This document shows positions 7,316-44,505 of a stretch of DNA of 58,901 nucleotides, piece after piece. The stretch's first letter is position 1. Every line of letters starts with the position of its first letter. Under the pieces are notes generated by a model that made no database searches, was not told where the DNA came from, and saw nothing but the letters and a program-made list of their open reading frames with translations. A program made the position numbers and the translations under genes. The stretch is from contig JAIPDC010000002.1 in NCBI GenBank assembly GCA_021737865.1, positions 1 through 58,901 of the forward strand, read 5' to 3'. The DNA comes from Rhodoferax sp. (GTDB taxonomy: Bacteria; Pseudomonadota; Gammaproteobacteria; Burkholderiales; Burkholderiaceae_C).

Positions 7316-8368
7316 TTAGTGGATCCGTGCAGGGAAAAACCCCTGCACCGACTGCGGCAATTTACATCCGGTCTGGTGTGCGCGCTCCAGCACCTGCCAA
7401 AAATACCGGAAGCTCGCCCGGTCATGCAATTTGCCATCCACCGAGATGGGGGCCCATTCTTCACTTTGGGCCTGCTGCACGATACGCGCTGCCAACTCCA
7501 GCTCAGACCTGGACGGCGTGAAGGCATGCAATATGGGTCGAATCTGCCCGGGGTGGATACTCCACATCCTCGTATATCCGAACGCAGTGGCGGCGCGCTT
7601 TGCTGCGCGTTCAATGCCAGCCTCATCACGCAACTCGGTCACCACACAATGCGAGGGCACTTTGCCGGATGCATGGCAGGCACTGGCGATGTCGAGCTTG
7701 GCTCGCACCACCAGCGGATGGTGAAACTGGTCCAGAGTCGATGCATCACCCGCATCGCGCAAACCCATGGCCGTGTGGGGAATCGCGCCAGCATGTGCAG
7801 AGACAAAGTCCATCAACCCAAAACTCAAGGACTCGACACGGGGATGCGCCGCAATCTCGAACGCCCGGTGCACCGCAGCCGGCGACTCAATCAACACATG
7901 CAAAGGCAGCGGAATGCTGCGTTGTCCTGGCCGCACAGCGGCGTCCACTGCGGCCAAAGCATGCTCGACATCGGCGAGCGATTCCACTTTGGGAATCATG
8001 ATGTAGCTCAACGAATGGGCGGCACCGCCCACAACAATGTCCACATCCGACGCAAACGAAGCATGATCGACCGCATGCAACCGCACGCCAACCCGGCGTG
8101 ACAACCCTTTTGCTATTAAATCAGGAGCAGCTTGCGCAGCATTGGCGAGGGCTACAACCAGATCTGCCTGAAAAATCTCGCCGCCAACCGGGGCTCCGTC
8201 TTCGCAATCCAGCGTCACGTCAAAGACACAAACGCCGAACTCCTGCGTCATATCAGCCTGCAATTGAAGGCTCTTGACCATGCGCGCCTCGACCCCACTG
8301 TAGTGGTCACAAACAGGCAGCAAACCCGCTACCCCTTGTGCGTCCATGAGTACGTCACGCGGATGCAT
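7316..8368 (-). CDS. HpcH/HpaI aldolase / citrate-lyase-beta-like CoA-ester lyase
   Basis: Member of the CitE/malyl-CoA lyase superfamily: TIM-barrel enzymes that cleave or hydrolyse CoA esters such as malyl-CoA, citramalyl-CoA or citryl-CoA with Mg2+. Visible family features are [11 protein letters not shown] (metal-binding Glu/Asp), [10 protein letters not shown], the Glu in [23 protein letters not shown], and [13 protein letters not shown] near the end. I start at ATG 8368 (MHPRDVLMD), which has AAGGG upstream; the frame is open further. It sits between mdh and acnB, which fits a role around malate/acetyl-CoA, but the substrate is not decided by sequence. A dispersed repeat (8111-8156) overlaps codons for [14 protein letters not shown]. 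Confidence 0.85.
8111..8156 (+). repeat. Dispersed ~45-bp repeat, copy A (inside CoA-ester lyase gene)
   Basis: Begins TGCTATTAAA, contains the core GCAGCTTGCGCA, and ends GAGGGCTACA, matching the pattern TGCTAY..(A-rich)..AGCTGCTTGCGCA..GGGGGCTA seen in the four other copies. It is read in frame on the opposite strand as part of the lyase. It is the most diverged full-length copy. Confidence 0.6.
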
Positions 8369-8411
8369 TACACAGGCCCTTGAGCGCACGCAGCACAATC
8401 GCGGGCCACTG

Positions 8412-8484
8412 CGGAACCGGCTTTGCCGGGCCGCTGGTGGCGCCCCCTTGAGGGGGAGGCGCCGCAGGCGCTTCGGGGGCGGGT
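8412..8484. repeat. GC-rich triple-hairpin intergenic repeat downstream of mdh
   Basis: Three perfect hairpins in tandem: CCGGC-TTT-GCCGG (8417-8429), CCCCC-TTGA-GGGGG (8443-8456) and GCGCC-GCA-GGCGC (8459-8471), followed by TTCGGGGGCGGGT. From memory, very similar elements are scattered between genes in many Comamonadaceae genomes. It starts 5 bp beyond the mdh stop, so it may act as a transcript end or RNA stabiliser for mdh. No second copy is seen in this window. Confidence 0.65.
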
Positions 8485-8488
8485 CATT

Positions 8489-9475
8489 TCACAGCAGGTG
8501 TGCGACGCCGGCTTGCTCGTCTTGCAATTCTTTCAGGGTTTTGTTGATGCATTCCTGGCTGAACGCGTCAACTGGCAGGCCTTCGACCAGTGTGTACTCG
8601 CCACCGGCGCAAGTCACTGCGAAACCAAACATGGTGTCCTTTGGAATGCCATACTGGCCGTCCGACGGAATACCCATGGTGACCCACTTGCCATTGGTGC
8701 CCAGGGCCCAATCACGCATGTGGTCGATCGCTGCGTTGGCCGCTGAGGCGGCCGAAGATACACCCCGCGCTGCGATGATGGCCGCGCCACGCTTACCAAC
8801 GGTCGGCAGGAACGTATTCGCATTCCAATCCTGGTCGTTGATCATGTCCTTAACGCTTTGGCCATTGATGGTGGCAAAGCGGTAATCCGCGTACATGGTG
8901 GGCGAATGGTTGCCCCAGACGGCCATCTTTTCGATATCAGCCACGGCCTTACCGGTCTTGGCAGCCAGTTGGCTCAAGGCACGGTTATGGTCCAGGCGCA
9001 GCATGGCAGTGAAGTTTTTGCGTGGCAGATCAGGCGCGCTCTTCATGGCGATGTAGGCATTGGTGTTGGCTGGGTTACCCACCACCAGTACGCGCACATC
9101 ACGGCTGGCCACTGCATTCAGCGCCTTACCTTGGGCAGTGAAGATCTCGGCATTAACAGCCAGTAACTCGGCACGCTCCATGCCGGGGCCGCGGGGGCGT
9201 GAACCAATTAACAATGCGTAATCGACATCTTTGAATGCGGTCATAGGATCGCTGTGGGCTTCCATACCCACCAGCAGCGGGAACGCGCAATCCTGCAACT
9301 CCATCATCACGCCCTGCAGTGCCTGCTGGGCCTTCTCAACTGGTACTTCCAGCAAGCTCAACACGATGGGCTGGTCCTTGCCCAACATTTCGCCCGAGGC
9401 GATACGAAACAGAATTGCGTATCCAATTTGACCGGCTGCTCCGGTGACTGCAACGCGAACGGGCTTTTTGCTCAT
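8489..9475 (-). CDS. mdh: Malate dehydrogenase
   Basis: NAD-dependent oxidation of malate to oxaloacetate in the TCA cycle. The 328-residue product has the Rossmann motif [11 protein letters not shown] (residues 10-20), the substrate arginines in [22 protein letters not shown], the LRLDHNRA segment and the catalytic His in [13 protein letters not shown]. This is the MDH form common in betaproteobacteria and Actinobacteria. The ATG at 9475 ([10 protein letters not shown]) is preferred because GGAG is properly placed before it; the frame stays open upstream. It is divergent from the gntR regulator gene and its candidate promoter abuts the regulator's palindrome. Confidence 0.97.
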
Positions 9476-9557
9476 GGTGTTAACTCCAGGAAGTGTTGTA
9501 AAAACGGCGACTGTCCGGGGACCCAAGCGAAAGGGTGAGTCCTTCAGAATGGGACGG

Positions 9558-9587
9558 AGTTTACCCCCGAAATTACGGCAAAGTCAA
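9558..9587 (-). promoter_or_regulatory. Candidate mdh promoter
   Basis: Reading leftward, TTGACT (9582-9587, five of six -35 bases) is followed after 18 bp by TAAACT (9558-9563, four of six -10 bases). The TCTTATATAAGA palindrome at 9599-9610 lies just upstream of the -35 element, where a bound regulator could affect polymerase. Confidence 0.45.
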
Positions 9588-9588
9588 T

Positions 9589-9616
9589 TTGTCTTATGTC
9601 TTATATAAGATATGAT
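9589..9616 (+). promoter_or_regulatory. Candidate gntR promoter with embedded palindromic operator
   Basis: TTGTCT (9589-9594), a 16-bp spacer and TATGAT (9611-9616, five of six -10 bases) form a plausible promoter. The spacer contains the perfect 12-bp palindrome TCTTATATAAGA (9599-9610), preceded by a direct copy of its left arm (TCTTAT, 9592-9597). A palindrome between -35 and -10 of a GntR-family gene is the usual position of an autoregulatory operator. The same site could control mdh on the other strand. No other copy of the palindrome was noticed near sdhC, gltA or acnB. Confidence 0.6.
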
Positions 9617-9666
9617 TCAACATTAATTCGAGACTGACTCGAAGCTGACTTTTTAAGCCATTTTTC

Positions 9667-10476
9667 ATGTCCGCAACGCCCACTTTTCACACCGACAGCA
9701 CCGCCGCGCAAGCCCCGGATGTGAACGCGTCTGCGGCCATGGCGCAACAAACACCGGCTTTCAGCCCTCTGTACCAGCAAATCAAGGTCCTGATCCTGCA
9801 AAGCCTGCAGGCTGGCGAGTGGAAACCCAGCACTGCCATACCCAGCGAAATGGAACTTGCTGCCCGCTTCAAGGTCAGCCAGGGCACGGTGCGCAAAGCC
9901 ATCGACGAACTTGCATCTGAAAATCTGCTGGTGCGGCGCCAAGGCAAAGGCACCTTTGTTGCCACCCATGCCGAGCGCCAAATCCAATACCGGTTTCTCA
10001 AGCTGATCCCGGACAATGGCGACCCTAGCAGCGAGGGGCCTGCACAGCGGCACATCATTGACTGCAAGCGTTCTCGCGCATCCATGGAGGTTGCACGGGC
10101 GCTTGCGATTCGGCAGGCAGACGCTGTGCTGCAGGTGCGCCGCGTGCTGTCGTTCGCCTCAACACCCACCATTCTTGAGGACTTGTGGCTGCCGGCCGCG
10201 CCGTTTAAGGGTTTGACCGCAGAGCGCCTGCGGGACTATGACGGTCCAATGTACGCGCTGTTTGAAACCGAATTTGACGTGCGAATGGTACGGGCCGAGG
10301 AAAAAATTCGAGCAGTCCTGCCCGATGCTGAACAATGTGCGCTTCTGAAAATCAGCCCACAATCGCCTCTACTGAGCGTTGAGCGCATCGCTTACACCTA
10401 TAACGACGTCCCAATGGAAATGCGACGCGGTTTGTATCTGACAAACAAGCATTACTATCGGAATGCTCTAAGTTGA
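9667..10476 (+). CDS. GntR-family transcriptional regulator, HutC type with UTRA domain
   Basis: DNA-binding regulator. The N-terminal winged helix (about residues 35-105) shows the GntR pattern: LYQQIKVLILQSL, IPSEMELAARFKVSQGTVRK, then LVRRQGKGTFVA in the wing. The remaining ~150 residues form a UTRA effector domain (PLLSVERIAYTYNDVPMEMR near the end), which typically binds a small acid or sugar. It is divergent from mdh and directly upstream of sdhCDAB-sdhE-gltA, so control of TCA genes by a TCA metabolite is likely but inferred. The start at 9667 is the first ATG of the frame; a weak Ala/Thr-rich tail of about 30 residues precedes the domain. Confidence 0.9.
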   Translation: MSATPTFHTDSTAAQAPDVNASAAMAQQTPAFSPLYQQIKVLILQSLQAGEWKPSTAIPSEMELAARFKVSQGTVRKAIDELASENLLVRRQGKGTFVATHAERQIQYRFLKLIPDNGDPSSEGPAQRHIIDCKRSRASMEVARALAIRQADAVLQVRRVLSFASTPTILEDLWLPAAPFKGLTAERLRDYDGPMYALFETEFDVRMVRAEEKIRAVLPDAEQCALLKISPQSPLLSVERIAYTYNDVPMEMRRGLYLTNKHYYRNALS

Positions 10477-10578
10477 ATAGTTTGTTGATGCAAGTCCAGC
10501 GTCAGCCTGTTGCAGTGCAATAGAATTTTGACCTGCAGCAGCAATAATTACATATGGTTACATCCAGAAAGCCTACTC

Positions 10579-11022
10579 ATGTCTGAGCTCCATTCTGCCC
10601 CCCGCGCCAAACGGCCCGAATTCCGCAACATCAATGCCTTCGGCGACTTGCCGGGTTACCGTTGGCCTTTAGCAGCCATCGTTTCTGGCATGCACCGTGC
10701 CAGCGGACTGATGATGTTCGTGCTGATGCCATTCATCATCTGGATGTTTGACACATCGGTCAGTTCTGAATTTTCGTTCGCACGATTCACCTCCGCCTTC
10801 AATAATGGCATTGGTTTTGTACCCGGCATCTTGATCAAAGTGGTCGCTCTGGGTCTGATCTGGGCCTACTTGCACCACTTTTTTGCCGGCATGCGCCACA
10901 TCCGCATGGACTTATTTCACACGGTTACCAAAGAAGCGGGCAAGAAAACAGCACAACTGACCCTGGTTCTAAGCCTGGGCCTGACTGCCGTGCTGGGCGC
11001 CAAGCTGTTCGGCCTGTACTAA
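10579..11022 (+). CDS. sdhC: Succinate dehydrogenase cytochrome b556 subunit
   Basis: Membrane anchor of respiratory complex II, binding heme b and ubiquinone together with SdhD. About 147 residues with three hydrophobic helices; the signature region RWPLAAIVSGMHRASGLMM lies near residue 36-54 and the heme-ligand region HHFFAGMRHIRMD after the second helix. I chose the ATG at 10579 (MSELHSAPRAKRPEF) because the upstream part of the open frame has no family similarity. First gene of sdhCDAB-sdhE-gltA; the 102-bp gap before it has no convincing promoter. Confidence 0.95.
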   Translation: MSELHSAPRAKRPEFRNINAFGDLPGYRWPLAAIVSGMHRASGLMMFVLMPFIIWMFDTSVSSEFSFARFTSAFNNGIGFVPGILIKVVALGLIWAYLHHFFAGMRHIRMDLFHTVTKEAGKKTAQLTLVLSLGLTAVLGAKLFGLY

Positions 11023-13260: not shown

Positions 13261-13262
13261 TC

Positions 13263-24087: not shown

Positions 24088-24794
24088 AAGCTATTGGCCC
24101 CACGCTTGCGCGAACCCGAATCAAAATCTGCGGTCTGACCCGGGAACAAGACGTTGACGCGGCGGTCGCTGCCGGAGCGGATGCCATTGGCTTTGTGCTG
24201 TACGCCAAAAGCCCGCGCGCCGTCAGTGCCCAGCGCGCCGCAGAACTGGCCAAGCGCCTACCCCCCTTCATAACACCCGTGCTGTTGTTCGTCAACGCAC
24301 CTGCTACAGAAATAATAGCTGCTTGCGCAATGATTGCGGGGGCTACCGTGCAATTTCATGGAGATGAGTCGGCACAGGACTGTGCTACTGCCACCGCGAA
24401 CAATAGCCGTCCGTGGCTGCGCGCCGCTCGGATTCCACTGGGCGATGGCGCGCAAGACTTTGACCTCGTAAAATACGCCCAAGATTACTCAAACGCCCAA
24501 GCCATCCTGCTCGACGCCCATGTTGACGGATTTGGCGGTGGCGGCAAGGCATTCAATTGGTCACTGCTTCCTCCAAACGTCAACGCTCACCTCGTCTTGA
24601 GTGGTGGACTCACACCTGCAAATGTGGGCGATGGGGTCAAACAGGTTCGCCCGCGCTGTAAGACGCTGGCCGTGGACGTGAGCTCGGGCGTGGAAGCCGT
24701 GGACGCCCAGGGAACCCCTCTAAGAGGCATCAAGGATCCCGAAAAAATTTTCCAGTTCGTTGCCGCCGTGCGTGCAGCGGATCAGTTCTCCTGA
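24084..24794 (+). CDS. trpF: Phosphoribosylanthranilate isomerase
   Basis: Amadori rearrangement step of tryptophan synthesis. 236 residues forming a TIM barrel: the catalytic Cys in RIKICGLTREQDVDAA, FHGDES at strand 3, the catalytic Asp in ILLDAHVDGFGGGGKAF, and LVLSGGLTPANV and VDVSSGVE at the phosphate site. The helix ATEIIAACAMIAGA (about residues 75-88) is encoded by a dispersed repeat (24302-24346). The protein is only about two residues longer there than typical relatives, so the repeat appears to replace rather than merely interrupt native sequence. Confidence 0.95.
   Translation: MKAIGPTLARTRIKICGLTREQDVDAAVAAGADAIGFVLYAKSPRAVSAQRAAELAKRLPPFITPVLLFVNAPATEIIAACAMIAGATVQFHGDESAQDCATATANNSRPWLRAARIPLGDGAQDFDLVKYAQDYSNAQAILLDAHVDGFGGGGKAFNWSLLPPNVNAHLVLSGGLTPANVGDGVKQVRPRCKTLAVDVSSGVEAVDAQGTPLRGIKDPEKIFQFVAAVRAADQFS
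24302..24346 (+). repeat. Dispersed ~45-bp repeat, copy B (inside trpF)
   Basis: TGCTACAGAAATAATAGCTG, then CTTGCGCA, and GCGGGGGCTAC at the end. It is one of the best matches to the consensus and lies wholly in the coding frame of trpF without disrupting it. Confidence 0.7.
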
Positions 24795-24859
24795 AACTTT
24801 GTGGGACAGACTGCCGCCACGCGCCGCGAGTTCGCTCTGTCACTAATTGATTGAAAATA

Positions 24860-26146
24860 ATGTACGAATACCACCAACCGGACCCGACCGGCCACTTCGG
24901 CAAGTTCGGCGGCAGCTTTGTCTCAGAGACACTGACCCACGCCATCAATGAACTCAAGGACGCCTACGCCAAATACCAGCATGACCCCGAATTCATTGCC
25001 GAATTCAAGTCCGAGCTGGCGCACTTTGTCGGCCGCCCCTCCCCCGTGTACCACGCAGCCCGCATGAGCCGCGAAATGGGTGGCGCGCAGATCTTTTTGA
25101 AGCGCGAAGACCTGAACCACACCGGCGCCCACAAGATCAACAACACCATCGGCCAGGCCATGCTCGCCAAGCGCATGGGCAAGCCCCGCGTGATTGCAGA
25201 AACCGGCGCCGGCCAGCACGGCGTTGCCACCGCCACCATCTGCGCCCGTTACGGACTGGAATGCGTGGTCTACATGGGCAGCGAGGACGTGAAGCGCCAA
25301 AGCCCCAACGTCTACCGCATGAAGCTGCTGGGCGCCACCGTGGTGCCAGTGACCAGCGGCAGCAAAACACTGAAAGACGCGCTGAACGAGGCCATGCGCG
25401 ACTGGGTTGCCAACGTGGACAACACGTTCTACATCATCGGCACTGTGGCCGGTCCACACCCGTACCCGATGATGGTGCGCGACTTCCAAAGCGTGATCGG
25501 CGAGGAGTGCCTGGTGCAAATGCCCGAGATGCTGAAGGCGGCTGACTGCAAAACGGAGCAGCCGGATGCGGTGATTGCCTGCGTAGGCGGTGGCTCCAAC
25601 GCCATGGGCATCTTCCACCCCTACATCCAGCATGAGAAAACCCGCCTGATCGGCGTGGAAGCGGCCGGCGAAGGCATGGACAGCGGCAAGCACTCAGCCA
25701 GCATCCAGCGCGGCAGCCCCGGCGTGTTGCACGGCAACCGCACCTATGTGCTGCAGGACGACAACGGCCAGGTCACCGAGACGCACAGCATCAGCGCCGG
25801 CCTGGACTACCCCGGCGTCGGCCCCGAGCACGCCTTTCTGCACGACATTGGCCGGGCCGAATACGTGGGTATCACTGACATGGAGGCACTCGATGCCTTC
25901 CACTACCTGTGCCGCACCGAGGGCATCATCCCGGCACTGGAATCCAGCCATGCCGTGGCCTACGCAATGAAGCTGGCAAAGACCATGCGCACCGATCAAA
26001 GCATTCTGGTCAATCTGTCGGGGCGCGGCGACAAGGACATTGGGACGGTGGCCGACCTGAGCAACGGAGAATTCTTCTGCCGACCCAGCTGCACAGGCCA
26101 GTCTGTGAAGGGAAATGTGGTTGCAGCCCCCGTAAAACGTGCGTGA
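24860..26146 (+). CDS. trpB: Tryptophan synthase beta chain
   Basis: Condenses indole with serine using PLP. About 428 residues; the start [20 protein letters not shown] is typical. The PLP lysine is Lys92 in [15 protein letters not shown], and the phosphate-binding loop is [13 protein letters not shown] use the ATG at 24860, not the in-frame TTG at 24851, because the family begins here. It follows trpF by 65 bp and precedes trpA by 20 bp. Confidence 0.98.
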
Positions 26147-26149
26147 GCA

Positions 26150-26166
26150 GCTACGAAAGTAATAGC
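26150..26166 (+). repeat. Possible truncated copy of the dispersed repeat between trpB and trpA
   Basis: GCTACGAAAGTAATAGC closely resembles the 5' half of copy B (GCTACAGAAATAATAGC). It fills most of the 20-bp trpB-trpA spacer and ends where the trpA ATG begins. Short enough to be chance, so low confidence. Confidence 0.35.
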
Positions 26167-26988
26167 ATGAGCCGAATCGACAAAACTTTTCAAACCCTTG
26201 GCGCCCAAGGGCGCAAGGCTCTCATTCCGTTCGTCACTGCGGGTTTTCCGTATGCCGATGTCACGCCTGAACTCATGCACGCCATGGTGGCAGGTGGCGC
26301 CGATGTGATTGAACTGGGCGTGCCCTTTTCCGACCCCAGCGCCGATGGCCCTGTCATCCAGAAGGCCGGCGATAAGGCGCTGGCCTTCGGGATCGGTATG
26401 GTTCAGGTGTTGGACATGGTGCGTGATTTTCGCCGGACCAACAACAGCACCCCGGTGGTGTTGATGGGCTATGCCAACCCAGTGGAACGCTACGACCAGA
26501 AGCACACAGCGCCGGGGGTCTCGAGCGCTTTCGTACGGGACGCGGCAGCGGCCGGTGTGGACGGCGTATTAATCGTCGACTACCCGCCGGAAGAATGTGA
26601 GGCCTTTGCAGCCGACCTGCGCGTCCACGACATGGATCTGATCTTTCTGCTGGCACCCACCAGCACCGATGCCCGCATGGCACAGGTTGCACGCGTGGCC
26701 AGCGGCTATGTGTACTACGTGTCGCTCAAGGGTGTGACGGGCTCGGGGGCGCTCGATACCAATGCCGTAGAGGCCATGCTGCCACGCATCCGACGGCACA
26801 TCAGCGTGCCAGTGGGCGTGGGTTTTGGCATCCGCGATGCGGAAACCGCCCGAACGATCTCCCGGGTGGCAGATGCTGTGGTGATTGGCAGCAAGATTAT
26901 CCAGCTGATTGAAAACCAGCCTCGTGACAAGGTGGCCCACACGGCCCAGCAATTCTTGAGCGAGATTCGATCCGCCCTGGATAGCTGA
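26167..26988 (+). CDS. trpA: Tryptophan synthase alpha chain
   Basis: Cleaves indole-3-glycerol phosphate to indole, which is channelled to TrpB. 273 residues; catalytic Glu49 and Asp60 are present in [18 protein letters not shown], with [12 protein letters not shown] and [13 protein letters not shown] at the phosphate site. The ATG at 26167 ([20 protein letters not shown]) is the standard start. In many Burkholderiales accD follows trpA directly; here two signalling genes come in between. Confidence 0.97.
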
Positions 26989-32593: not shown

Positions 32594-33160
32594 TCAGATG
32601 GCAAACAACACCGCCGCCTGAACCGATCCCAGCACAATCCCGGCCACTTGCAGGATCAGCAGCAACACCAATGGCGACAGATCAATGCCGCCAATCAGAG
32701 GCACCACGCGACGAATCGGTATCAAGACCGGCAGCACCAGCCGCTCCAGAAAGTCGGCCGCCATCGACTGCGTCTGCACCCATGACAGGATGGCGTACAC
32801 GATGACCAGGCCGGTCAGACCTGAAATAGCCATGCGCACCAGCCCAAAGGCCGCCAACACCACCACTGACAGCAAACCGGCAGCCATGCCCATGATGGCC
32901 CACAAAATCACAAACTGCGCCAGCTGAACCAGAAAAGCCCCCACCAGGCTGGCCATATCCCAGCGACCCGCAGCGGGGATGACCCGGCGCAGTGGCAACA
33001 CCAGCCAGTCGGTCAATGCAAAAATAAACTTGGCCAGCGGATTGCCTGATCGCACCGACATGGGAATGCGCTGGTATTGCATATACAGGCGCAAAAGGCA
33101 GGTTCCGGCGACTAGACCGGCGGCCACTTCCAGCAACAGCGATGTGATTTGGTAGAGCAT
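32594..33160 (-). CDS. YggT family membrane protein
   Basis: Integral membrane protein of the YggT family, about 188 residues with two copies of the YggT unit ([27 protein letters not shown] and [34 protein letters not shown], split here), each with a membrane segment before and after. Homologues are linked to osmotic and ion homeostasis, but no biochemical role is established. The start [12 protein letters not shown] at 33160 is chosen over an ATG 30 nt upstream. Convergent with accD and divergent from lysS. Confidence 0.88.
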
Positions 33161-33268
33161 GGTGTCCAATCCAATGAGCGTTTGCATCATATACGCACCA
33201 CCCCTCTTAGAATCAAGGGTTATGGCCTTCTATTAGGGCCCAATTTGACTCCACTTGCCCTTACCTCC

Positions 33269-34834
33269 ATGTCTGACCCACAAGCCCCCGTTTCCGCATC
33301 TGCTCACGCCCCCGCTCCCCAGGACGAAAACCAGCTGATTCTCGAGCGCCGGGAAAAACTCAAAGCCATTCGACAGCGTCAGACCGAGGGCCATGGGGTG
33401 GCTTTTCCCAACGACTTCAAGCCCAGCCACAAAGCAGAAGCGCTGTTTGCCGAGTACGACTCGCATTCCACCGAAATTCTGGCTTCCATGAACGCCACCG
33501 CCAAGGTGGCCGGTCGCATGATGCTCAAGCGTGTCATGGGCAAGGCCAGCTTCTGCACGCTGCAGGACGCGTCCTTTGGCCCCAGCGGCGGGCGCATCCA
33601 GATTTACGTCAAGGGTGAAGATATCGGCGCGGACCTGTATGCCTTGTTCAAACACTGGGACCTGGGTGACATCGTGGCCGCAGAAGGTACCGTATTCAAA
33701 ACCAAGACGGGTGAGTTGTCCCTGCACGCCAGCAGCATCCGACTGCTCACCAAGAGCCTGCGCCCAATGCCTGACAAGTTCCACGGCATCAACGACCAGG
33801 AAGTGAAATACCGCCAGCGTTACGTTGACCTGATGATGGACGAGACCTCCCGCAAACGCTTCGTGGCCCGCAGCAAGGCCGTCAGCGGTCTGCGCGAGTT
33901 CATGGTACAGCACGGTTTTCTGGAGGTGGAAACGCCCATGCTCCACCCCATTCCCGGTGGCGCAAACGCCAGACCGTTTGCCACGCACCATAACGCGCTG
34001 GACCAGCAAATGTTCCTGCGCATTGCGCCCGAGCTGTACCTGAAGCGCCTGATCGTCGGCGGCTTTGACCGGGTGTTCGAGATCAACCGCAACTTCCGTA
34101 ACGAAGGCATCTCGGTGCGCCACAACCCGGAGTTCACCATGATGGAGTTCTACGCGGCGTATTGGAACTACCAGGACCTGATGAGCTTCACTGAAGCCCT
34201 GGTGCGCGATGCAGCCATCAAGGCCGGCGACAGCCTGCACCTCACCTACGGCGGCAAACCCGTAGACCTGGCCGCACCATTTGAGCGCCTGACGATCAAG
34301 CAGGCCATCGCCAAGTACACCGATGCCGGCGAGGGCGTCAACGACTCGGTCTGGCTGACGAACGCCCTGCGCAAACTGGGCCTGACGGAGGCCAAGCACC
34401 AACTCTCCGCCCGCAGCCTGGCAAGTCTGCAGGTGTTGTACTTTGAAGAAACCGTGGAGGAAAAGCTGTGGCAGCCCACGTTCATTTGCGAGCATCCGGT
34501 TGAAATTTCTCCTCTGGCCCGGGCCAGCGACACGAATTCCGAAGTGACCGAGCGTTTTGAGCTCTACATCACCGGACGTGAATTCGGCAACGGCTTCAGC
34601 GAATTGAACGACGCCGAAGACCAGGCCGCACGCTTCAAGTCACAAGTCGACGCAAAAGACGGCGGCGACGATGAAGCCATGCACTACGACCATGACTTTG
34701 TGCGCGCGCTCGAGTACGGCATGCCCCCCACGGGGGGCTGTGGCATCGGCATTGACCGCCTGATGATGCTGCTGACCGACAGCCCCAGCATCCGGGACAT
34801 CATCCTGTTCCCCGCCCTGCGCCGGGAAATTTAG
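33269..34834 (+). CDS. lysS: Lysine--tRNA ligase, class II
   Basis: Charges tRNA-Lys. About 521 residues: an N-terminal OB-fold anticodon domain ([16 protein letters not shown] to [14 protein letters not shown]) and a class II catalytic core with motif 2 [20 protein letters not shown] and motif 3 [15 protein letters not shown] near the C-terminus. I start at the ATG at 33269 ([10 protein letters not shown]); the longer open frame adds non-conserved sequence overlapping the divergent yggT start region. A TAGAAT at 33208-33213 could be its -10 but no matching -35 is evident. Confidence 0.97.
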
Positions 34835-34877
34835 GTAAAAACAGCCTCCAGACCGCGTGGAATAAGCGTAGACAGCT

Positions 34878-35423
34878 ATGAAACCTGTAGCAACTGTCGC
34901 ATTGAAGTTTTTGCAGGGTTACCCGCAAGAAACGCTGATCCAGGTGCAACAGATGTTCGACGGCGGACGCATCGGCCCCTGGCTGCTGCAAAAATACCCT
35001 TCGGCCCACAACGTGCGCACCGACCGTGCGCTATACGACTACGTGCAGGCGCTCAAGACGGAACACCTGCGGGGCGCCGAGCCGCTGAGCAAGGTGGCAT
35101 TCGACAGCAAACTGCAAATCGTCCAGCACGCACTGGGCACACACACCACCGTGTCACGGGTGCAGGGCAACAAGCTCAAGGCCAAACGCGAGATTCGTGT
35201 TGCTTCGCTGTTCAAGGACGGCCCGGCCGAGTTCCTGAAGATGATTGTGGTCCATGAGCTGGCCCACCTGCGCGAGCGCAGCCACGACAAGGCGTTCTAC
35301 CAGCTCTGTGCTTATATGGAACCCGCCTATCACCAGCTGGAATTTGAGTTGCGCCTGTACCTGACGCACCTGGAGGGTAGCGGTGTGCGGTTGTGGGAAT
35401 CAACCCCAGCAACGCCCGTCTGA
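34878..35423 (+). CDS. YgjP-like (DUF45/WLM-type) metal-dependent hydrolase
   Basis: Putative zinc metallopeptidase of the YgjP family. The 181-residue product has HELAHLRERSH with zinc-ligand histidines 126, 130 and 136 and catalytic Glu127, then AFYQLCAYMEPAYHQLE. The residue pattern fits the minimal gluzincin-like fold of the family; substrates are unknown. It lies 43 bp after lysS in the same direction and may be co-transcribed. Confidence 0.85.
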   Translation: MKPVATVALKFLQGYPQETLIQVQQMFDGGRIGPWLLQKYPSAHNVRTDRALYDYVQALKTEHLRGAEPLSKVAFDSKLQIVQHALGTHTTVSRVQGNKLKAKREIRVASLFKDGPAEFLKMIVVHELAHLRERSHDKAFYQLCAYMEPAYHQLEFELRLYLTHLEGSGVRLWESTPATPV

Positions 35424-37155: not shown

Positions 37156-37225
37156 GGCACAAGCATAAGGCCATGCCGGCCCTACGCGCCGCCGCCACGT
37201 CGGTCGTGGTCCGCAAGCGCTGTTT

Positions 37226-37270
37226 TGCTACTTTTTTGATAGCTATTGACGCATATTCCACGGGGGCTAT
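37226..37270 (+). repeat. Dispersed ~45-bp repeat, copy C (intergenic)
   Basis: TGCTACTTTTTTGATAGCTA, then TTGACGCATATTCCACGGGGGCTAT. It lies in the gap before the small gene at 37316 and is nearly identical at both ends to copies B and D. Confidence 0.7.
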
Positions 37271-37315
37271 GTGCCACAATCGCTGTAAGAATTTTGTTCT
37301 GAGAGGATTTCAACC

Positions 37316-38019: not shown

Positions 38020-40038
38020 ATGTCTACCGCCCGAAACCTGTTTTTATCGGTGGCCAGCGCGGTCGCGCTGACATCCTCGTACTTCGCACTCGCGCAGTCG
38101 GAGGCGCACCACGGTTTCAAATCATCCGTTCAAGCGCAGCAAAGGGCCCTGCACCCGGATTCAGCGGTGCGCATGAACCGCCTCATTGTGAAGTTCCGCA
38201 GCGATGGGGACGACAAGGCCGCGGCACAGACCGACACATCAGCCAGGCAGCGGGTCCACGCTCTCAACACCCGCATCACGTCCAGCGCGGCAGCGCACGC
38301 CGGCACCACGCTGAGTTACCTGAAGTCGGTCTCGGCACACACCCACGTGGCACAAACCAGCCGGGCCATGGGGCACACCGAATTGAGCGCACTGGCGCAC
38401 GCCGTGGCCCAAGACCCAAGGGTGGAATACGCCGAGGTGGATGAGCGCGTCTACCCCCACTTTGTGCCCAACGACAGCCTGTATGCGGCGCACCAAGGAA
38501 ATTTGAAGTCCCCGGCGGTTGTGGCCGGTGGTGCCAACCTGCCCAACGCATGGGGCCGCACCGTGGGCGGCATGCCCGTCAGCGGTGCGGGCGTGACCGT
38601 GGCCGTGCTGGACACCGGCTATCAACCACACGCCGACCTGGCTGCCAATGTGGTGTCCGGCTACGATTTCGTCAGTCCCGATGGGCTGAACAACTATTTC
38701 ACTGCCAACGATGGGGACGGACGCGATGCCAGCGCCCTCGACCCGGGCGACTGGAACACGAACGCAAACCAATGCGATGTTGAGGACTCCTCATGGCACG
38801 GCACACACGCGGCCGGAATTATTGGCGCCTTGGGTAATAACAATGTCGGTGTGATTGGCGTGGCCTACCGTGCCCGCATTTTGCCGGTTCGTGTGCTCGG
38901 TGTGTGTGGCGGCTTCACCTCGGACACCGCAGCCGCGCTTCAGTGGGCTGTGGGTTTGACCGTGCCGGGTGTACCGGTCAACCCCAATGTGGCCAAGGTG
39001 ATCAACATGAGCTTTGGCCGCAGTGGGAGTTGCTCACCCACCTACCAGGCAGCGATTACGGCGGCGCGCAACACGGGCGCTGTGATTGTGGTGTCGACCG
39101 GTAATGAATACTCCCGCTCGGCCATCACCCAGCCCGCCAACTGCTCGGGCGTGATTGCGGTGACCGCACACACCAGTACCGGCACCCTTGCCGACTACGC
39201 CAACGTCGGCGTCAGTACCGTTATCAGCGCGCCCGGCAACAGCATCTACACCACCAGCAACACCGGCCTTACCGTGCCGGTTGCCGACAACTACAGTGCG
39301 TTCACAGGCACCAGCTTTTCCGCCCCGCAGGTGGCGGGTGTGGCGGCCTTGCTCATGCAACTGAAGCCCGGCATCAGCCCCACTGAAGTGCAGAACCATC
39401 TGGTCAGTTCAGCGCGGGCATTTCCCAGTGGAACCTATTGCGCTACCCGCACCGACTGCGGGGCCGGTCTGTTGGACGCTTTCAGGGCCGTGAATGCCTT
39501 GCTGACCTCGCAGGGCACCGCCAATGCGGCACCGGTTCTCAATGCCCTACCCACGCAGTACGTGCTGCCAGGCGGCAACCTGCAATTCACGGCGACCGCC
39601 ACCGATGCCGAAGGTGACGAAGTGGTTTTTAACGGGACGGGGCTGCCCAGCGGCGCCACCTTCAACTCGGTGACGGGTGCATTCAGCTGGCCCAAGGCAC
39701 AGCCTGCGGGGGACTATGTGTTTGTGATTCAGCCCACAGATGGTGCCGCTTTGGGAGCCAGCGTGTCAGTGAAGATTTCCGTCACTGCAGTGATTCCGGC
39801 AGAGCCTGTGGCGCCTGTGGTGCCGGTCACACCAGTCGTGCCCGTTGCCCCAGTGGCCCCAGTTGCCCCTGTTGCCACAGGCGGTGGTGGCGGCGGCGCT
39901 CTGGGCTGGGCGGAATTGCTGGCAGGCTTGTTATTGTTGCTGTCGGCCCGCTATTTGACCGACCCACGCGGCACGACTGCCGTTGTCTATATCAAGCAAT
40001 CCAGTCCAGCGCCCGCATGTAGGCACCCTGCACCATAA
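38020..40038 (+). CDS. Secreted S8 (subtilisin-like) serine protease with GlyGly-CTERM-like tail
   Basis: Extracellular or surface serine protease of 672 residues. In order: signal peptide (to about FALAQ), prodomain (about 50-150, MNRLIVKFRSDGDD to VEYAEVDERVYP), S8 catalytic domain with Asp198 (VAVLDTGY), His260 (SSWHGTHAAG) and Ser432 (GTSFSAPQVAG), one Ig-like domain (PVLNALPTQYVLPGGNLQF), a PVAPV repeat linker, then GGGGGGALGWAELLAGLLLL with SARYL. That last block resembles GlyGly-CTERM sorting signals handled by rhombosortases. Unusually, about 25 residues follow it, and the last 47 bp run antisense through the nagZ C-terminus, so the natural end may have been lost by mutation. Confidence 0.9.
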   Translation: MSTARNLFLSVASAVALTSSYFALAQSEAHHGFKSSVQAQQRALHPDSAVRMNRLIVKFRSDGDDKAAAQTDTSARQRVHALNTRITSSAAAHAGTTLSYLKSVSAHTHVAQTSRAMGHTELSALAHAVAQDPRVEYAEVDERVYPHFVPNDSLYAAHQGNLKSPAVVAGGANLPNAWGRTVGGMPVSGAGVTVAVLDTGYQPHADLAANVVSGYDFVSPDGLNNYFTANDGDGRDASALDPGDWNTNANQCDVEDSSWHGTHAAGIIGALGNNNVGVIGVAYRARILPVRVLGVCGGFTSDTAAALQWAVGLTVPGVPVNPNVAKVINMSFGRSGSCSPTYQAAITAARNTGAVIVVSTGNEYSRSAITQPANCSGVIAVTAHTSTGTLADYANVGVSTVISAPGNSIYTTSNTGLTVPVADNYSAFTGTSFSAPQVAGVAALLMQLKPGISPTEVQNHLVSSARAFPSGTYCATRTDCGAGLLDAFRAVNALLTSQGTANAAPVLNALPTQYVLPGGNLQFTATATDAEGDEVVFNGTGLPSGATFNSVTGAFSWPKAQPAGDYVFVIQPTDGAALGASVSVKISVTAVIPAEPVAPVVPVTPVVPVAPVAPVAPVATGGGGGGALGWAELLAGLLLLLSARYLTDPRGTTAVVYIKQSSPAPACRHPAP

Positions 40039-41104
40039 GCGAATCCCACTCCAGCGCGGGCGTCCGGGGCAACAGAGCGCGGCGACGCGCCTCACTGGCA
40101 TCGCTGGCCTGCCACTGGCCTTTGAGCTGCGCTTCGGTCAGGCCGGCAATCAATTCATCGACGGCACTTCCGCCGCCCTGACTGCTTGCCGTGGACTGGT
40201 TGCACAGCAGCACCATGTCACACCCTGCCGTCAACGCCACCACGGCAGCCTGCGTGTAGCTGACCGCTTGCCCATCAATCACCCGTGCACCGGCCATCGA
40301 CAGGTCGTCGCTGAAAATGGCGCCGCCAAAACCGAGCCGGCCGCGCAAAATGTCGTTCAACCATGTGCTGGAAAACCCGGCCGGGCGTGCGTCCACCGTG
40401 GGGTAGATCACGTGCGCCGGCATCACGCTCATGGTGACGGTGTTGAGCCAGCGGTACGGCGCGGCATCGTCGGCCAGAATGGTCTTGAGGCTGCGCTTGT
40501 CCACCGGGATATCGGTGTGTGAATCGGCTTTGACAAAGCCATGGCCCGGGAAATGTTTGCCGCAGTTGGCCATGCCGCTTTGCAGCAGGCCGTGCATCAG
40601 GCTCTTGGCCAGCAGGCTCACCACGCGCGGATCGCGCGCGAAGGCACGGCTGCCGATCACGCTGCTCTCACCATAGTCCAGGTCCAGCACCGGCGTAAAG
40701 CTCAAGTCCACACCACAGGCGCGCAGTTCTGCGCCCAGCACGTAACCACAGGCGGTAGCGGCGTTGGTGGCGTCCATGGGACCGGCGTGGGTGTGGGTGT
40801 GGGTGTGGGTATTGGCCTTGGGCTCAGCCATCCACATCTCGCCCAGGGCGCGCATGGGCGGCAGGTGGGTAAAACCGTCGGTCTTGAAGCGCTGCACCGC
40901 ACCGCCCTCATGGTCCACGCAGATCAGCAGGTCGGAGCGGACCTTTTTGATGTCGCCGCACAGGGCCATGAGTTGCGCGCGATCCTGCCAGTTACGGGCA
41001 AACAAAATCAGTCCACCCACCAGCGGGTGCTTGAGTCGCTGGCGGTCAACCCGGGTCAAAGTCAGGCCGGCAATATCGATGATGAGGGGGGCGTGGAAGG
41101 TCAT
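39992..41104 (-). CDS. nagZ: Beta-N-acetylhexosaminidase NagZ
   Basis: Cytoplasmic GH3 enzyme that releases N-acetylglucosamine from anhydromuropeptides in peptidoglycan recycling. About 370 residues; VDHEGGAVQRF, GKHFPGHGFVKADSHTDIP (general acid/base His loop) and FSDDLSMAG (nucleophile Asp) are present. The surface loop after PPMRALGEMWMAEPKA carries a THTHTHTH run coded by four GTGGGT units (40787-40810). ATG 41104 (MTFHAPLIID) is preferred to the TTG at 41119. Its 3' end overlaps the convergent subtilase gene by 47 bp. Confidence 0.95.
   Translation of the reverse strand: MTFHAPLIIDIAGLTLTRVDRQRLKHPLVGGLILFARNWQDRAQLMALCGDIKKVRSDLLICVDHEGGAVQRFKTDGFTHLPPMRALGEMWMAEPKANTHTHTHTHAGPMDATNAATACGYVLGAELRACGVDLSFTPVLDLDYGESSVIGSRAFARDPRVVSLLAKSLMHGLLQSGMANCGKHFPGHGFVKADSHTDIPVDKRSLKTILADDAAPYRWLNTVTMSVMPAHVIYPTVDARPAGFSSTWLNDILRGRLGFGGAIFSDDLSMAGARVIDGQAVSYTQAAVVALTAGCDMVLLCNQSTASSQGGGSAVDELIAGLTEAQLKGQWQASDASEARRRALLPRTPALEWDSLMVQGAYMRALDWIA
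40787..40810. repeat. Hexanucleotide microsatellite in nagZ
   Basis: Four perfect tandem GTGGGT units, read on the coding strand as alternating Thr-His codons. Changes in unit number would keep the frame and alter the length of a loop rather than switch the gene off. Confidence 0.85.
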
Positions 41105-41128
41105 GAAAATAGTTCGCAATGAAAGTCG

Positions 41129-41171
41129 TGCTATAAATTCAATAGCTGCATGCGCATATTGTACGGGGGCC
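41129..41171 (+). repeat. Dispersed ~45-bp repeat, copy D (intergenic)
   Basis: TGCTATAAATTCAATAGCTG, then CATGCGCATATTGTACGGGGGCC. It lies 24 bp upstream of the nagZ start, in the 212-bp gap before the fmdB-like gene, whose remaining part shows no clear promoter. Confidence 0.7.
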
Positions 41172-41316
41172 GGGGTCCAATAGCAGCATCACCTGGGGTT
41201 GGAAATAGTCAGTTCAGGGATGCACTACCTGCCTGCAGTCACTGATGCGCACGCAAAGCACCCGTCGCTCAACTCCCCCGCAAAGCGGGTAAAGTATGCA
41301 CTGAGGAGGAGTTGTC

Positions 41317-41541
41317 ATGCCCATGTACGAATACGCCTGCGAAGACTGCAGCCATCAATTTGAAACGCTTGTTCGCGCCGGGTCCGTGCCGGAATGTCCA
41401 AATTGTCATTCGACCAAACTGCAGAAGCTACTGTCAGTGTTTGCGACCACCGGTGACTCGGCCAAGGCGGCACCGGTCATGCCAGGGCCGTGTGGTTCCT
41501 GTGGACACCCCAATGGTCCGGGCGCCTGCGGCTTTCAATGA
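41317..41541 (+). CDS. FmdB family zinc-ribbon protein
   Basis: A 74-residue putative regulatory protein with an N-terminal zinc ribbon, MPMYEYACEDCSHQFE and ECPNCHST (Cys8, Cys11 and the CPNC pair), and a Cys-rich tail (GPCGSCGHPNGPGACGF). GAGGAGG lies upstream. The family name comes from a formamidase gene cluster; its job is not known in general. In betaproteobacteria it often stands near aspartyl-tRNA synthetase genes, which are not seen here. Its stop is 3 bp from the convergent acpS stop. Confidence 0.88.
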   Translation: MPMYEYACEDCSHQFETLVRAGSVPECPNCHSTKLQKLLSVFATTGDSAKAAPVMPGPCGSCGHPNGPGACGFQ

Positions 41542-41544
41542 AGA

Positions 41545-41940
41545 TTATTCTTTGAACTCGACAACGCAAAAGCTGGCGGCGTAATCGGTTTCATCCGTCA
41601 CGCTGATATGGGCGCTGAGTTTGCGCCCGTCAAACCATTCTTTCAAGCCGCCATGCAGGACGATGGTCGGCGCCCCACTGGGCAGCTTTGCCACTTCGCA
41701 GAGACGCCAGGTCATGGGCATACGCATGCCCAGCCCTATGGCCTTGCTGAAGGCTTCCTTGGCAGAGAAGCGCGTGGCCAGGTAGCGCACACCCCGTTCG
41801 GGCCAGCGCTGGCTGCGGACTTTCCAGGTGGCAAGCTCGCCATCGCTGAGAATCTTCGCCGCGAAGCGCTCGCCATGGCGCTGCAGACTCTCGCGGATGC
41901 GGCGCACGTCGCAGATGTCAGTGCCGATGCCGTAGATCAT
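41545..41940 (-). CDS. acpS: Holo-[acyl-carrier-protein] synthase
   Basis: Transfers phosphopantetheine from CoA to the serine of apo-ACP, activating it for fatty acid synthesis (acpP is encoded in this window). 131 residues, with the Mg-binding [18 protein letters not shown] and [13 protein letters not shown] motifs. It is the last gene of the lepA-to-acpS cluster, 13 bp after pdxJ. Confidence 0.96.
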
Positions 41941-41953
41941 GGTGGACGAGTTT

Positions 41954-42709
41954 TCAAGCCTTCAGCCGCAAACACTGCAGGTAGGCCTGCACCGTGGCGG
42001 TGTAGCCCAGTTCCAGCGCATCGGCAATCAAGGCGTGGCCGATGGAGACTTCGGCGACGTCCGGTACCGTGCGCACAAACGCGGCCAGGTTGTCGCGATT
42101 GAGGTCGTGCCCAGCGTTCACACCCAGCCCGACGTCCAGCGCCGCTCGAGCGGCGGCGGCGAAGCGTTGCAGTTGCGCTTCCTGCCCGGAGGTGCCCCAG
42201 GCGGCCGCGTAGGGCTCGGTGTACAGCTCCACCCGGTCCGCCCCCACGGCCTTGGCGGCAGGCATGGCATCAGATTCAGCGTCCATGAACAGGCTCACAC
42301 GCAATCCCAGCGCGTGTGCCTGCGCAATCAGCGGCGTCAGGCGTTCGGCGTCCTGCGGAAAATTCCACCCGTGGTCACTGGTGAACTGGCCTTCAGAGTC
42401 TGGCACGAAGGTGACCTGGTGCACTGGCAGCTTGCGTGCCACCAGATCAGCCACGCAGTCCATCAGGTTGTGAAACGGGTTGCCTTCGACGTTGAACTCC
42501 CGGTCCGGCCAGGCTTGCAGCAGTTGGGCCAGCTGAACCACATCATCGGGGCGAATGTGGCGGGCGTCCGGACGCGGATGCACCGTAATACCCCCGGCAC
42601 CCGCCTCAAGGCACAAGGTAGCAGCACGGGTCACACTGGGGATGCCCAGATGACGCGTGTTGCGCACCAGCGCGACTTTGTTGAGGTTGACTGAAAGTTT
42701 AGCGGGCAT
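41954..42709 (-). CDS. pdxJ: Pyridoxine 5'-phosphate synthase
   Basis: Condenses 1-deoxyxylulose 5-phosphate with 3-amino-2-oxopropyl phosphate to form pyridoxine phosphate. About 251 residues: [15 protein letters not shown] at the N-terminus, [21 protein letters not shown] and the [11 protein letters not shown] phosphate site. I start at the ATG at 42709 ([10 protein letters not shown]), two bases past the recO stop; the longer open frame would overlap recO. Confidence 0.96.
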
Positions 42710-42711
42710 AG

Positions 42712-43461
42712 TTACAAGTTTTGAATATCCATCATCATCTGGCGGGTACGCAGAGTTCTGACACCGCAATGGTAGTGCAACAGGGTCCGCAGCTGCGGCT
42801 TGAGTTCACTGGCAACTGCGGCGCAGGCACGCAACGTAGTCGTAAATGCTGCACCATCCGCCAGCGAAACCTGCAAAACGCTCCATTGCGCACCGCTCAG
42901 ACTGGCGCGGTCATCCGCGTGGGCCAGACGCAGGCCACCTTCAGGAACCAGGCAATAGCGGCCATCGGGAGCCAGAGCACCCAGGGTCATGGTTTGCCTA
43001 TCCAGCTCCGGCAGGAGGCCGATTTCCCGCAACAGCAGCAGCTCGTAGGTTCGCAGCGCGGCCTGCAAGACTTCACCGTGTTCGCTGGCCAGCACCCTCA
43101 CCACGTTGGCATAGACATCGAACAGCACCGGGTGCGGATCGTCCCGGGCCAGCAGGGTCAACAACAGTTCATTAAGGTAATAGCCCGACAACAGCGCATC
43201 GCCCGTGGGCATGACGTGGCCGCCCTGCCACTCGGCGCTCTTGAGGGTGCGGATTTCCGCGTCGCCGCCAAATGCCACATGCAGCATCTGCAGTGGCAGC
43301 AACACGGGACGAAAACTCGAACTGGGGCGCTTGGCGCCCTTGGCCACCAGCGCGATACGACCATGGTGGCGGGTCAACACCTCCAAAATCAGGCTTGACT
43401 CGCTCCAGTCGTAGCGGTGCAACACATACGCGGGTTCGTCGGATATGCGCTTGGTGGCCAC
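42712..43461 (-). CDS. recO: DNA repair protein RecO
   Basis: Mediator that loads RecA on SSB-coated DNA in the RecFOR pathway. 249 residues with an OB-fold start ([30 protein letters not shown]) and helical C-terminal part ([19 protein letters not shown]). The zinc-site cysteines seen in some RecO proteins are largely absent. The start is GTG, directly abutting the era stop. Confidence 0.94.
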
Positions 43462-44505
43462 TTACTCATATCCGAAAGACCGCACCCGCGCTTCATCATC
43501 GGCCCAGCCCGAGCGTACTTTCACCCACAGCTCGATGAAAACCTTGGCATCGGCGAGCTTCTCCAGTTCGACCCGGGTTTCCATGCCGATGCGCTTGATA
43601 CGTTCGCCTTTGTCGCCAATGACCATGGCCTTATGGGTGTCGCGCTCCACCACAATAGTGGCAGCGATGCGCAGCAGGCGCTTCTGGCCCTTGCGTTGTG
43701 GCGGCTCTTCATCGAACTTGTCGATGACCACCGTTGAGGTGTATGGCAATTCGTCCCCGGTCAGGCGAAACAGCTTTTCGCGCACCAGTTCGCTGGCCAA
43801 AAACTTTTCGCTGCGGTCGGTGAGCTCGTCTTCAGCGTACCACCAGGCCTGCTCGGGCAGGTACTTTTCACAAATTCCCAGCAGCCGTTCGGTGTCTTTG
43901 GCACTCTTGGCCGACATTGGCACAAATTCTGCAAACTTGTGCTTGTCCTGCATGGTCTGCAACCAGGGCGCGATGTCACCACGGCGGTGAATATTGTCGA
44001 GCTTGTTGGCAATCAGCAGCGTGGGGATGTTCTTGCCCAGCAGAGCCAGCACGCGCGCATCCGCCGGCGTAAAGCTGCCCGCCTCGACCACAAACAGAAT
44101 CAGGTCCACGTCAGCAACGGCGCCTTGCACCGTTTTGTTCAGCGATTTATTGAGTGCATTGGCGTGCAGGGTCTGAAAGCCCGGCGTATCGACAAACACA
44201 AACTGGGTCGCGCCGCGTGTGTGCATGCCAGTGATGCGGTGGCGCGTGGTCTGCGCCTTGCGCGAGGTGATGCTGATCTTCTGCCCTACCAACGCATTCA
44301 GGAGTGTCGACTTGCCCACGTTGGGCTTGCCAACGATGGCGACCAGGCCGCAGCGCTGTCCCTGAGCGACGGTGCCGGGCTGCGCCAACTTAGGCGTGCT
44401 CTTGAGTAGTCCTTCGAGCATGGTGTCGAGATCGGCTTGTTGATCGTTTTGGCCGTCAGCCTTCGTGAAATCTGCGCTAGCAGCTATTTTTTTTGTAGCA
44501 TTCAT
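43462..44505 (-). CDS. era: GTPase Era with repeat-derived N-terminal extension
   Basis: Essential GTPase that binds the 3' end of 16S rRNA during 30S assembly. 347 residues: a G domain with [18 protein letters not shown] (residues 56-73), DTPG and NKLD, and a C-terminal KH domain with [12 protein letters not shown]. Typical Era is about 300 long. The extra ~50 residues at the N-terminus begin [10 protein letters not shown], which is encoded by copy E of the dispersed repeat. The ATG overlaps the rnc stop by one base (TAATG), so this extended start appears to be the real one. Confidence 0.95.
44471..44500 (-). repeat. Dispersed repeat, copy E (5' part, encodes the Era N-terminus)
   Basis: On the leftward strand: TGCTACAAAAAAAATAGCTG, then CTAGCGCAGA, matching the 5' two-thirds of copies B and D; the GGGGGCTA end is missing. 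It starts in codon 2 of era. Confidence 0.6.

Follow-up and report, generated by a model that had tools for sequence, protein, structure and literature searches.

What kind of DNA element can recur, as a single dispersed unit of ~70 bp, both inside genes and in the spacers between them? This question is raised by a stretch of 58,901 nucleotides from Rhodoferax sp. (GenBank assembly GCA_021737865.1, contig JAIPDC010000002.1, positions 1 to 58,901 of the forward strand; the whole stretch is called the window below), in which eight copies of such a unit were found. An earlier note on this DNA had described five of the sites as dispersed repeats of ~45 bp, some of them built into reading frames, perhaps by insertion or templated replacement. 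We infer that the repeats may be a long DNA-uptake signal, and put the probability of this reading at about 0.5.

The copies were scored with two matrices, the second of which was trained on 29 copies of the same genome, all lying outside the window. The eight window copies reached 44–62 bits with this out-of-window matrix and 42.5–68.7 bits with the first one. In 25 dinucleotide-preserving shuffles of the window, the top score of the first matrix did not exceed 4.9 bits, and the sequence read backwards gave no match at 15 bits. The cmsearch E-values of the eight copies, three of which were in the model, ranged from 7.3e-16 to 1.9e-7. All five sites of the earlier note exist, share one common pattern and were recovered at 46.7–60.3 bits with the out-of-window matrix; the count of five was too low. 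Three copies, at 6671-6741, 34826-34896 and 26101-26171 (all on the minus strand), had been absent from that list or under-called, and the last of them is a full copy where a mere fragment (26150-26166) had been suspected in the trpB-trpA spacer. The GC content of the eight copies is 41–50%, and each stands singly and dispersed. As a proof by itself, the short core pattern TAGCTGCTTGCGCA is weak in the window, where it has 14 matches with three mismatches and 6 of 100 shuffles get as many; the evidence is carried by the whole unit. In the own genome of the window (G000, 3.5 Mb, 79% complete), the pattern GCTAYN7ATAGCTGC has 54 exact matches and the reversed pattern 0, so the genome-wide excess that had been set as a check is present. 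A model search in the same genome gave at least 150 matches (150 of the 150 candidates scored).

The extent of the unit was read from an alignment of 32 copies matching GCTAYN7ATAGCTGC, taken from the window and from loci of the same genome. Around GCTAY, the copies are conserved between about -5 and +65 and not beyond, which gives ~70 bp instead of the ~45 bp proposed before. The consensus is T GCTAY nWWWWnn ATAGCTGC TTGCGCA tatt nn ACGgGGGCTA g nGgCC n ATTT, and the sequence after it is A/T-rich. Terminal inverted repeats are not apparent in the profile and a Y1_Tnp match is absent from the own genome, as far as it is complete (79%); the earlier description of the repeats as lacking both inverted ends and a transposase agrees with this. 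In other genera, GCTAY, the A/T stretch and ATAGCTGC are kept and the middle part differs genus-wide. The middles of such dialects are exemplified by TTGAGCAgTattt.CATGGGC in G466, TCCCGCGATATTCTATTGG in G489 and GCGCA..ttc.acg.GcGCtag in Comamonadaceae bacterium OS-4 (OS-4 below). The dialect copies were collected with the matrix of the window's dialect, and the information summed over unit and flanks is 47–74 bits, values inflated by small samples (8 to 98 copies each).

The origin of the copies was studied in syntenic regions from relatives within the genus, by the kind of empty-site comparison that the earlier note had proposed. It comprised 185 site-orthologue pairs with both flanks aligned within 25 bp; pairs with a difference above 600 bp or poorer flanks were excluded. 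The element was present in 142 orthologues, absent in 41 and intermediate in 2. The 41 lacking pairs represent 10 sites (grouped by eye), and 25 of them come from a single genome, G032, which had no copy in 80 kb. None of the 41 copy-less orthologues was 60–80 bp shorter, as the insertion of a ~70-bp unit would require. The copy-less orthologues were shorter by 34 (2 pairs), 32 (1), 12 (5), 6 (1), 5 (1) or 2 bp (2), equal in length (9), or longer by 1 (5), 3 (1), 6 (2), 43 to 46 (5), 92 (1), 117 (1) or 313 to 315 bp (5). At trpF, 9 of the 13 copy-less loci of the genus have equal length and the others differ by -6, -6, -3 and +15 bp; in L085 and L076, the gap falls downstream of the element. 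The trpB-trpA junction, at which copy 4 (26101..26171, minus strand; cmsearch 36.7 bits, E = 1.3e-10; matrix 46.0 bits) reaches from the last part of trpB across the spacer into the first part of trpA, is mostly 3–15 bp shorter in copy-less species, equal in L081 and 78 bp longer in L073. Mobile insertion was rejected on this length comparison, and the alignments indicate that the element was gained in place by substitution. Of the two routes considered in the earlier note, simple insertion is not supported and replacement is retained, with little support for templated copying.

Copy 3 (24298..24368, plus strand; cmsearch 52.4 bits, matrix 54.8 bits) lies within trpF, in frame and on the same strand, and could be followed across species and genera. 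The set consisted of 30 genomes from 24 genera other than the window's own, of which 20 were element-rich (at least 61 pattern matches) and 10 element-poor (3 or fewer). A copy is found at the same codons in all 20 rich genomes (18–49 bits) and in 1 of the 10 poor ones. The scores in the poor genomes are 49 bits in G567, 5.0 in G790 and -7.9 in G618, of which the latter two look decayed, and below -30 in the other seven. Over the element, trpF aligns ungapped in 29 of the 30 genomes, the exception being G612 with four additional residues. The encoded peptide varies (EIIAACAMIAGA, NIIAAQAINTPA, NIIAARAMIPWA) and the DNA GCTAY...ATAGCTGC is mostly retained. ATA is used at one Ile position by 19 of the 20 rich genomes and by 1 of the 10 poor genomes (by-eye count); the share of ATA among the Ile codons of OS-4 is 3.3%. 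These alignments indicate a constraint at the DNA level within coding sequence.

Copy 2 (8107..8177, plus strand; cmsearch 29.4 bits, matrix 50.5 bits) is located in a gene of the HpcH/HpaI aldolase family (7316-8398, minus strand; Pfam), on the strand opposite to it. The position is occupied also in G015, G026, G007, G034 and G001; in G032 the copy is missing, with a length difference of 0 to +3. Across the same 30 genomes, this site scores at least 15 bits in three of the 20 rich genomes (G535, G462 and G612) and in a single one of the 10 poor genomes, G567. Among the genes without a copy, that of G618 has the same length and that of G489 is one residue shorter. Together with the copy at 44434, at the 5' end of an era-like open reading frame (ORF), the copies at 8107 and 24298 bear out the earlier statement that three of the five sites are coding and that the reading frame is tolerated.

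The distribution along a chromosome was analysed in OS-4, where 800 kb contained 98 copies and the reversed sequence 0. The copies are divided between the plus and minus strands as 25 and 27 in the block at 0.4–0.8 Mb and as 23 and 23 in that at 3.0–3.4 Mb; the two blocks belong to opposite replichores, because their GC skew is opposite. The density is 0.130 and 0.115 copies per kb, respectively, and 0.1125 at 1.84–1.92 Mb (9 copies in 80 kb), and no replichore or strand bias was seen in the blocks examined. Genes were called by a simple script, which gave coding fractions of 0.90 and 0.89 and left 2 of the 98 copies unclassified. Half of the classified copies (48 of 96) lie in predicted genes, 28 on the same strand and 20 on the opposite one. 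The frames are used unevenly, with one frame taking 23 of 28 same-strand and 13 of 19 opposite-strand copies (47 copies); we infer that this is partly because a stop within the element (TAG in ATAGC) closes one same-strand frame. The density increases with local GC content (Spearman 0.49, 80 bins), low-GC bins being poorer, and the 305 kb of the OS-4 plasmid contain 4 copies, a density one tenth that of the chromosome. A BLAST search with the consensus matched 3 of 72,556 plasmid records and 0 of 50,697 phage records, counts that are not scaled to the share of this family in the collections. Counter to a scarcity in foreign DNA, 30 stretches of IMG/VR had one exact dialect pattern, and the 283 kb fetched contained 28 copies of at least 15 bits, a count without adjustment for how many Comamonadaceae viruses the collection has. 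Foreign islands were considered as the content of the copy-free gaps in OS-4 and rejected: ten proteins from three of the eight gaps above 20 kb were all of the household type (rpoC, uvrD-like, sensor kinase, flagellar, ABC transporter and chemotaxis). One of these gaps has 45% GC.

Among 399 genomes across the order, high counts were found in the own family only, with no more than 3 matches per genome elsewhere, and the earlier statement of a family dispersed in Comamonadaceae was correct. Within the family, 169 of 397 genomes (126 genera) had at least one match. The matrix represents one dialect, and the counts for other genera are lower bounds. The element-rich genomes sampled have 0.11–0.24 copies per kb, or about one per 4–9 kb. 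The element is patchy down to the genus level, with 209, 172 and 276 matches in G655, G495 and G765 against 0 and 1 in G584 and G715, and it has been lost repeatedly. Pattern matches within the same genus contrast as 161 in G551 with 0 in G790, 64 in G535 with 0 in G618, 90 in G752 with 0 in G795, and 106 and 126 in G462 and G641 with 3 in G567. The exact pattern of the window's dialect occurs in 25 stretches of named genomes, belonging to Rhodoferax species (including R. antarcticus), Curvibacter sp. GWA2_63_95, OS-4 and uncultured Burkholderiales or beta-proteobacteria.

We propose that the element is a cis-acting DNA signal of ~70 bp, which would arise and be kept by in-place base substitution, within genes as well as between them. 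Fragments that bear it would be preferred by the type IV pilus/competence machinery, alleles nearer to the consensus would more often be taken into cells and recombined, and the chromosome would come to hold hundreds of lasting sites. The uptake machinery would then be the reader of the signal, and a bias in uptake would maintain it. The likeness to an uptake signal is suggested by the in-place gain, the occurrence on either strand and in several frames, the scarcity on the plasmid and in the low-GC bins of OS-4, the genome-wide dialects and the wholesale loss. According to PMC4212676, Acidovorax temperans and A. facilis are naturally transformed, A. temperans with own-species DNA only, and uptake by Verminephrobacter eiseniae needs type IV pili and is reduced by no more than about tenfold by a large excess of foreign DNA; transformation in both genera is self-selective, and the part consulted names no uptake signal. 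Genes for ComEC were found in all 80 genomes searched (77 above the cut-off), those for DprA in 79 and those for GspH-type pilins likewise in 79, with no difference between rich and poor genomes.

Several observations weigh against the proposed uptake role. The element is far longer and sparser than the established uptake sequences. Its perfect copies are fewer than the one-off copies, the reverse of the uptake signal sequence (USS) of Pasteurellaceae and the DNA uptake sequence (DUS) of Neisseriaceae: GCTAYN7ATAGCTGC has 11 perfect (control 0), 38 one-off (control 5) and 83 two-off (control 41) matches in 800 kb. The spacing in OS-4 is random and not even (coefficients of variation 1.00 and 0.78). 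Plasmids are not always poor in copies, since a 31.9-kb plasmid of Rhodoferax antarcticus has 3 places in the consensus BLAST, and plasmid depletion together with an even spread would also fit a chromosome-marking signal. At trpF, the element-poor G567 has a copy, and G034, which belongs to the own genus and is element-rich (143 matches), has none (-41 bits, +15 bp). Of the 26 copy-less genes at site 8107 in other genera, 24 fall short of the window's gene by 24–27 nt, which is a length change, though not one of the size of the unit. The ~11-bp spacing of the A/T blocks, seen as a period of 10.5–11 bp in A/T content that was the strongest or close to the strongest in three samples (a period of ~23 bp came out marginally ahead in OS-4), has no shuffle control. 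Finally, ComEC, DprA and GspH fail to separate rich from poor genomes; they therefore neither account for the repeated loss nor point to a reader protein, and the loss of competence genes was rejected as a cause of the loss of the signal.

The main rival explanation, which we regard as unlikely, is a chromosome-wide site for another protein, active in nucleoid organisation, segregation, recombination or repair and selected site by site. The in-place origin, the DNA-level constraint and the preference for the chromosome of OS-4 over its plasmid would fit such a site equally. A spacing of the A/T blocks by roughly one or two turns of the helix suits a bound protein, and the fact that every one of the 20 rich genomes from other genera has its trpF copy at identical codons resembles selection at the level of the site. 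However, strand and replichore bias are absent, the density is alike in three regions of OS-4, and one genus has species with and without the element (G655 with 209 matches, G584 with 0). The element is also longer than the known chromosome-organising sites. A role at the RNA level, as a terminator, attenuator or small RNA, is highly improbable. There is an excess of copies in spacers, and in OS-4 the divergent spacers are poorer than the convergent ones (4 copies in 83 gaps against 11 in 45, counting gaps of at least 40 nt), which speaks for such a role; yet orientation is not preferred in genes (28 and 20) or in co-directional spacers (19 copies in the same and 14 in the opposite orientation), and half of the copies are in genes. 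RNA structure was rejected as unsupported by fold or covariation: the consensus fold of the 32 copies is weak (-2.0 kcal/mol, and -5.0 for the reverse strand), and the arm pair 4-12 shows no stem-like covariation (TG 37, TA 25, CA 23, CG 8).

Two further explanations concern the spread of copies. The element might be moved in trans, like a repetitive extragenic palindrome (REP) or a miniature inverted-repeat transposable element, by a REP-associated tyrosine transposase (RAYT, also TnpA-REP; Y1_Tnp domain) or another transposase, which we consider quite unlikely. This idea was suggestive initially. The element is short, dispersed and chromosomal like REP, and 41 of 44 rich genomes have a Y1_Tnp gene, usually one per genome and with a length like that of RAYT genes. 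In 20 rich genomes, 14 matches to the element are no farther than 600 bp from the Y1 core, where 3–5 are expected from the mean density, and in 9 of the 20 a copy of at least 10 bits sits at the stop codon of the RAYT-like gene. It was weakened by several facts. Unlike REP, the element is neither extragenic (half of the copies are in predicted genes) nor inserted (no insertion signature in 41 pairs), and has no conserved stem. It is present in the rich genomes G685, G551 and G752 (99–100% complete), which have no Y1_Tnp match, whereas 27 of 36 poor genomes have one. The RAYT-like genes are bounded by distinct ends that do not resemble the element; the copy at the stop codon recurs at one place as the trpF copy does, and can be an inherited site; and there is little family structure among the copies. 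Templated replacement, in which a DNA copy overwrites a stretch of equal length by gene conversion or homing, is very doubtful. It would account for the combination of unchanged length and many simultaneous differences, and for the scarcity of half-built copies (nine regions gave only 4 matches scoring 0 to 15 bits). The mutual information between columns of the OS-4 copies is slightly above that of shuffles (0.0513 against 0.0497 ± 0.0005) and pairwise identities are spread more widely (0.065 against 0.053), which also points in this direction; subfamilies of copies were rejected, as these two small excesses are all that speaks for them. On the other hand, variable positions are hardly shared: apart from one exact duplicate and two copies with a partner at least 75% identical, the closest pair among the remaining 95 of the 98 OS-4 copies is 73% identical, and column shuffles give 68–75%. 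The codons around the trpF copy also change one by one between genera.

The DNA-uptake reading can be compared with known systems. DUS is 10–12 bp long, occurs about once per kb and has the receptor ComP. It resembles the element in its dialects, many coding copies and bias towards the core genome, and differs from it in length, density and known receptor. The USS of Haemophilus was shown to be non-inserted by the same no-gap test, and that source (PMC1626085) describes further features shared with the element: USS are found genome-wide in genes and spacers, arise by substitution and not insertion, are stable over long times, form dialects and have A/T-rich flanking segments. The same source gives a USS core of 9 bp with A/T segments and 65% of copies in coding sequence, in contrast to an element of ~70 bp. 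Perfect copies of USS outnumber one-off copies and an uptake preference is proven, whereas the uptake role of the element is proposed from its pattern. The element is not filed as a member of USS or DUS, only as working alike, because of its length, its low density and the missing excess of perfect copies. Somewhat more tentatively than the uptake role itself, it might represent a third natural family of uptake signals after those of Neisseriaceae and Pasteurellaceae, by far the longest (~70 bp, ~55 bits), with A/T blocks at helical turns, an old site in trpF, genus dialects and repeated wholesale loss.

Pieces of the element are already in print as unexplained motif pairs. A 2017 study (PMC5217627) reports the spaced pairs ATAGCT(N)22CAAAAG in Polaromonas naphthalenivorans and GCTTAT(N)5AAGCG in Acidovorax ebreus, with 125 and 114 copies, 81% and 94% of them intergenic, and leaves their function open; Rhodoferax ferrireducens had the most, 140. 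These pairs are probably pieces of dialects of the same element, because the ATAGCT core is shared, but they are reported there as separate motifs and, in the part consulted, without treatment as one family and without a test of insertion or uptake. Another repeat, the beta-proteobacterial repeat element BRE (75–91 bp), is also found in Comamonadaceae and has some intragenic copies, but according to PMC3110155 it has 69% GC, is arranged in tandem with variable number, does not exceed 29 per genome and occurs also in Bordetella.

The remaining window copies have the following locations, with gene families assigned by Pfam. Copy 1 (6671..6741, minus strand; cmsearch 26.5 bits, E = 1.9e-7; matrix 44.2 bits) lies between the aconitase-B gene (4076-6667, minus strand) and the 3' end of an ORF at 6725-7300 (minus strand). 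Copy 5 (34826..34896, minus strand; 43.0 and 62.1 bits) occupies the spacer between a class II tRNA synthetase gene (33149-34834, plus strand) and a YgjP-like ORF (34878-35423, plus strand). Copy 6 (37222..37292, plus strand; 30.6 and 46.7 bits) is intergenic, and copy 7 (41125..41195, plus strand; 52.1 and 48.4 bits) stands directly upstream of a gene for a glycosyl hydrolase of family 3 (39992-41119, minus strand). Copy 8 (44434..44504, minus strand; 53.5 and 60.3 bits) is at the 5' end of the era-like ORF (43462-44505, minus strand), whose product has a GTPase domain from residue 55 and a KH domain. If the listed start is right, this copy codes for part of an N-terminal extension before the GTPase domain of the Era-like protein.

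Some side observations were made at these and other loci. The trpF-trpB spacer of the window (24789-24856) matches short stretches elsewhere in G031 and G023, and a second dispersed repeat may lie there. In L074 and L090, the same spacer has a GC-rich inverted repeat, CCCTCTCTCGCCC...GGGCGAGAGAGGG, which is found in none of the other 16 aligned loci. The 49-bit trpF copy of G567 (G567:C39:176732-176751) occurs in a genome with 3 pattern matches, and two genus-mates have above 100 each. In G015, contig 91 has 7 copies of 54–73 bits within 11 kb (L100:6739-17433), mostly intergenic; orthologous flanks of this stretch were not found in the relatives compared. RAYT-like genes of ~230–290 aa (L212-L231) are present in many genera of the family. 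Most of the 20 loci have conserved ends, in many cases GGGGTCAGATTCC on the upstream side and GATGTGTCCCC...GGAATCTGACCCC on the downstream side, and these ends look like a separate repeat family. G447 has twenty Y1_Tnp matches, several with identical scores, and a recently active IS200-like element may accompany its single RAYT-like gene.

In the literature searched, with partial coverage, we found no mention of an uptake sequence for this family, nor of the element as a unit, its in-place origin or its reading as an uptake signal. If this reading is true, a third bacterial family, with environmental and symbiotic members, has evolved sequence-specific DNA uptake, and the length of the signal would require rethinking how pilins read DNA. 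It could also explain the preference of Acidovorax and Verminephrobacter for their own DNA in transformation. Since species of the same genus occur with and without the signal, the gain, change and loss of uptake specificity are directly testable. Even with another reader protein, a 70-bp signal that rewrites coding genes in place at hundreds of sites would be unusual.

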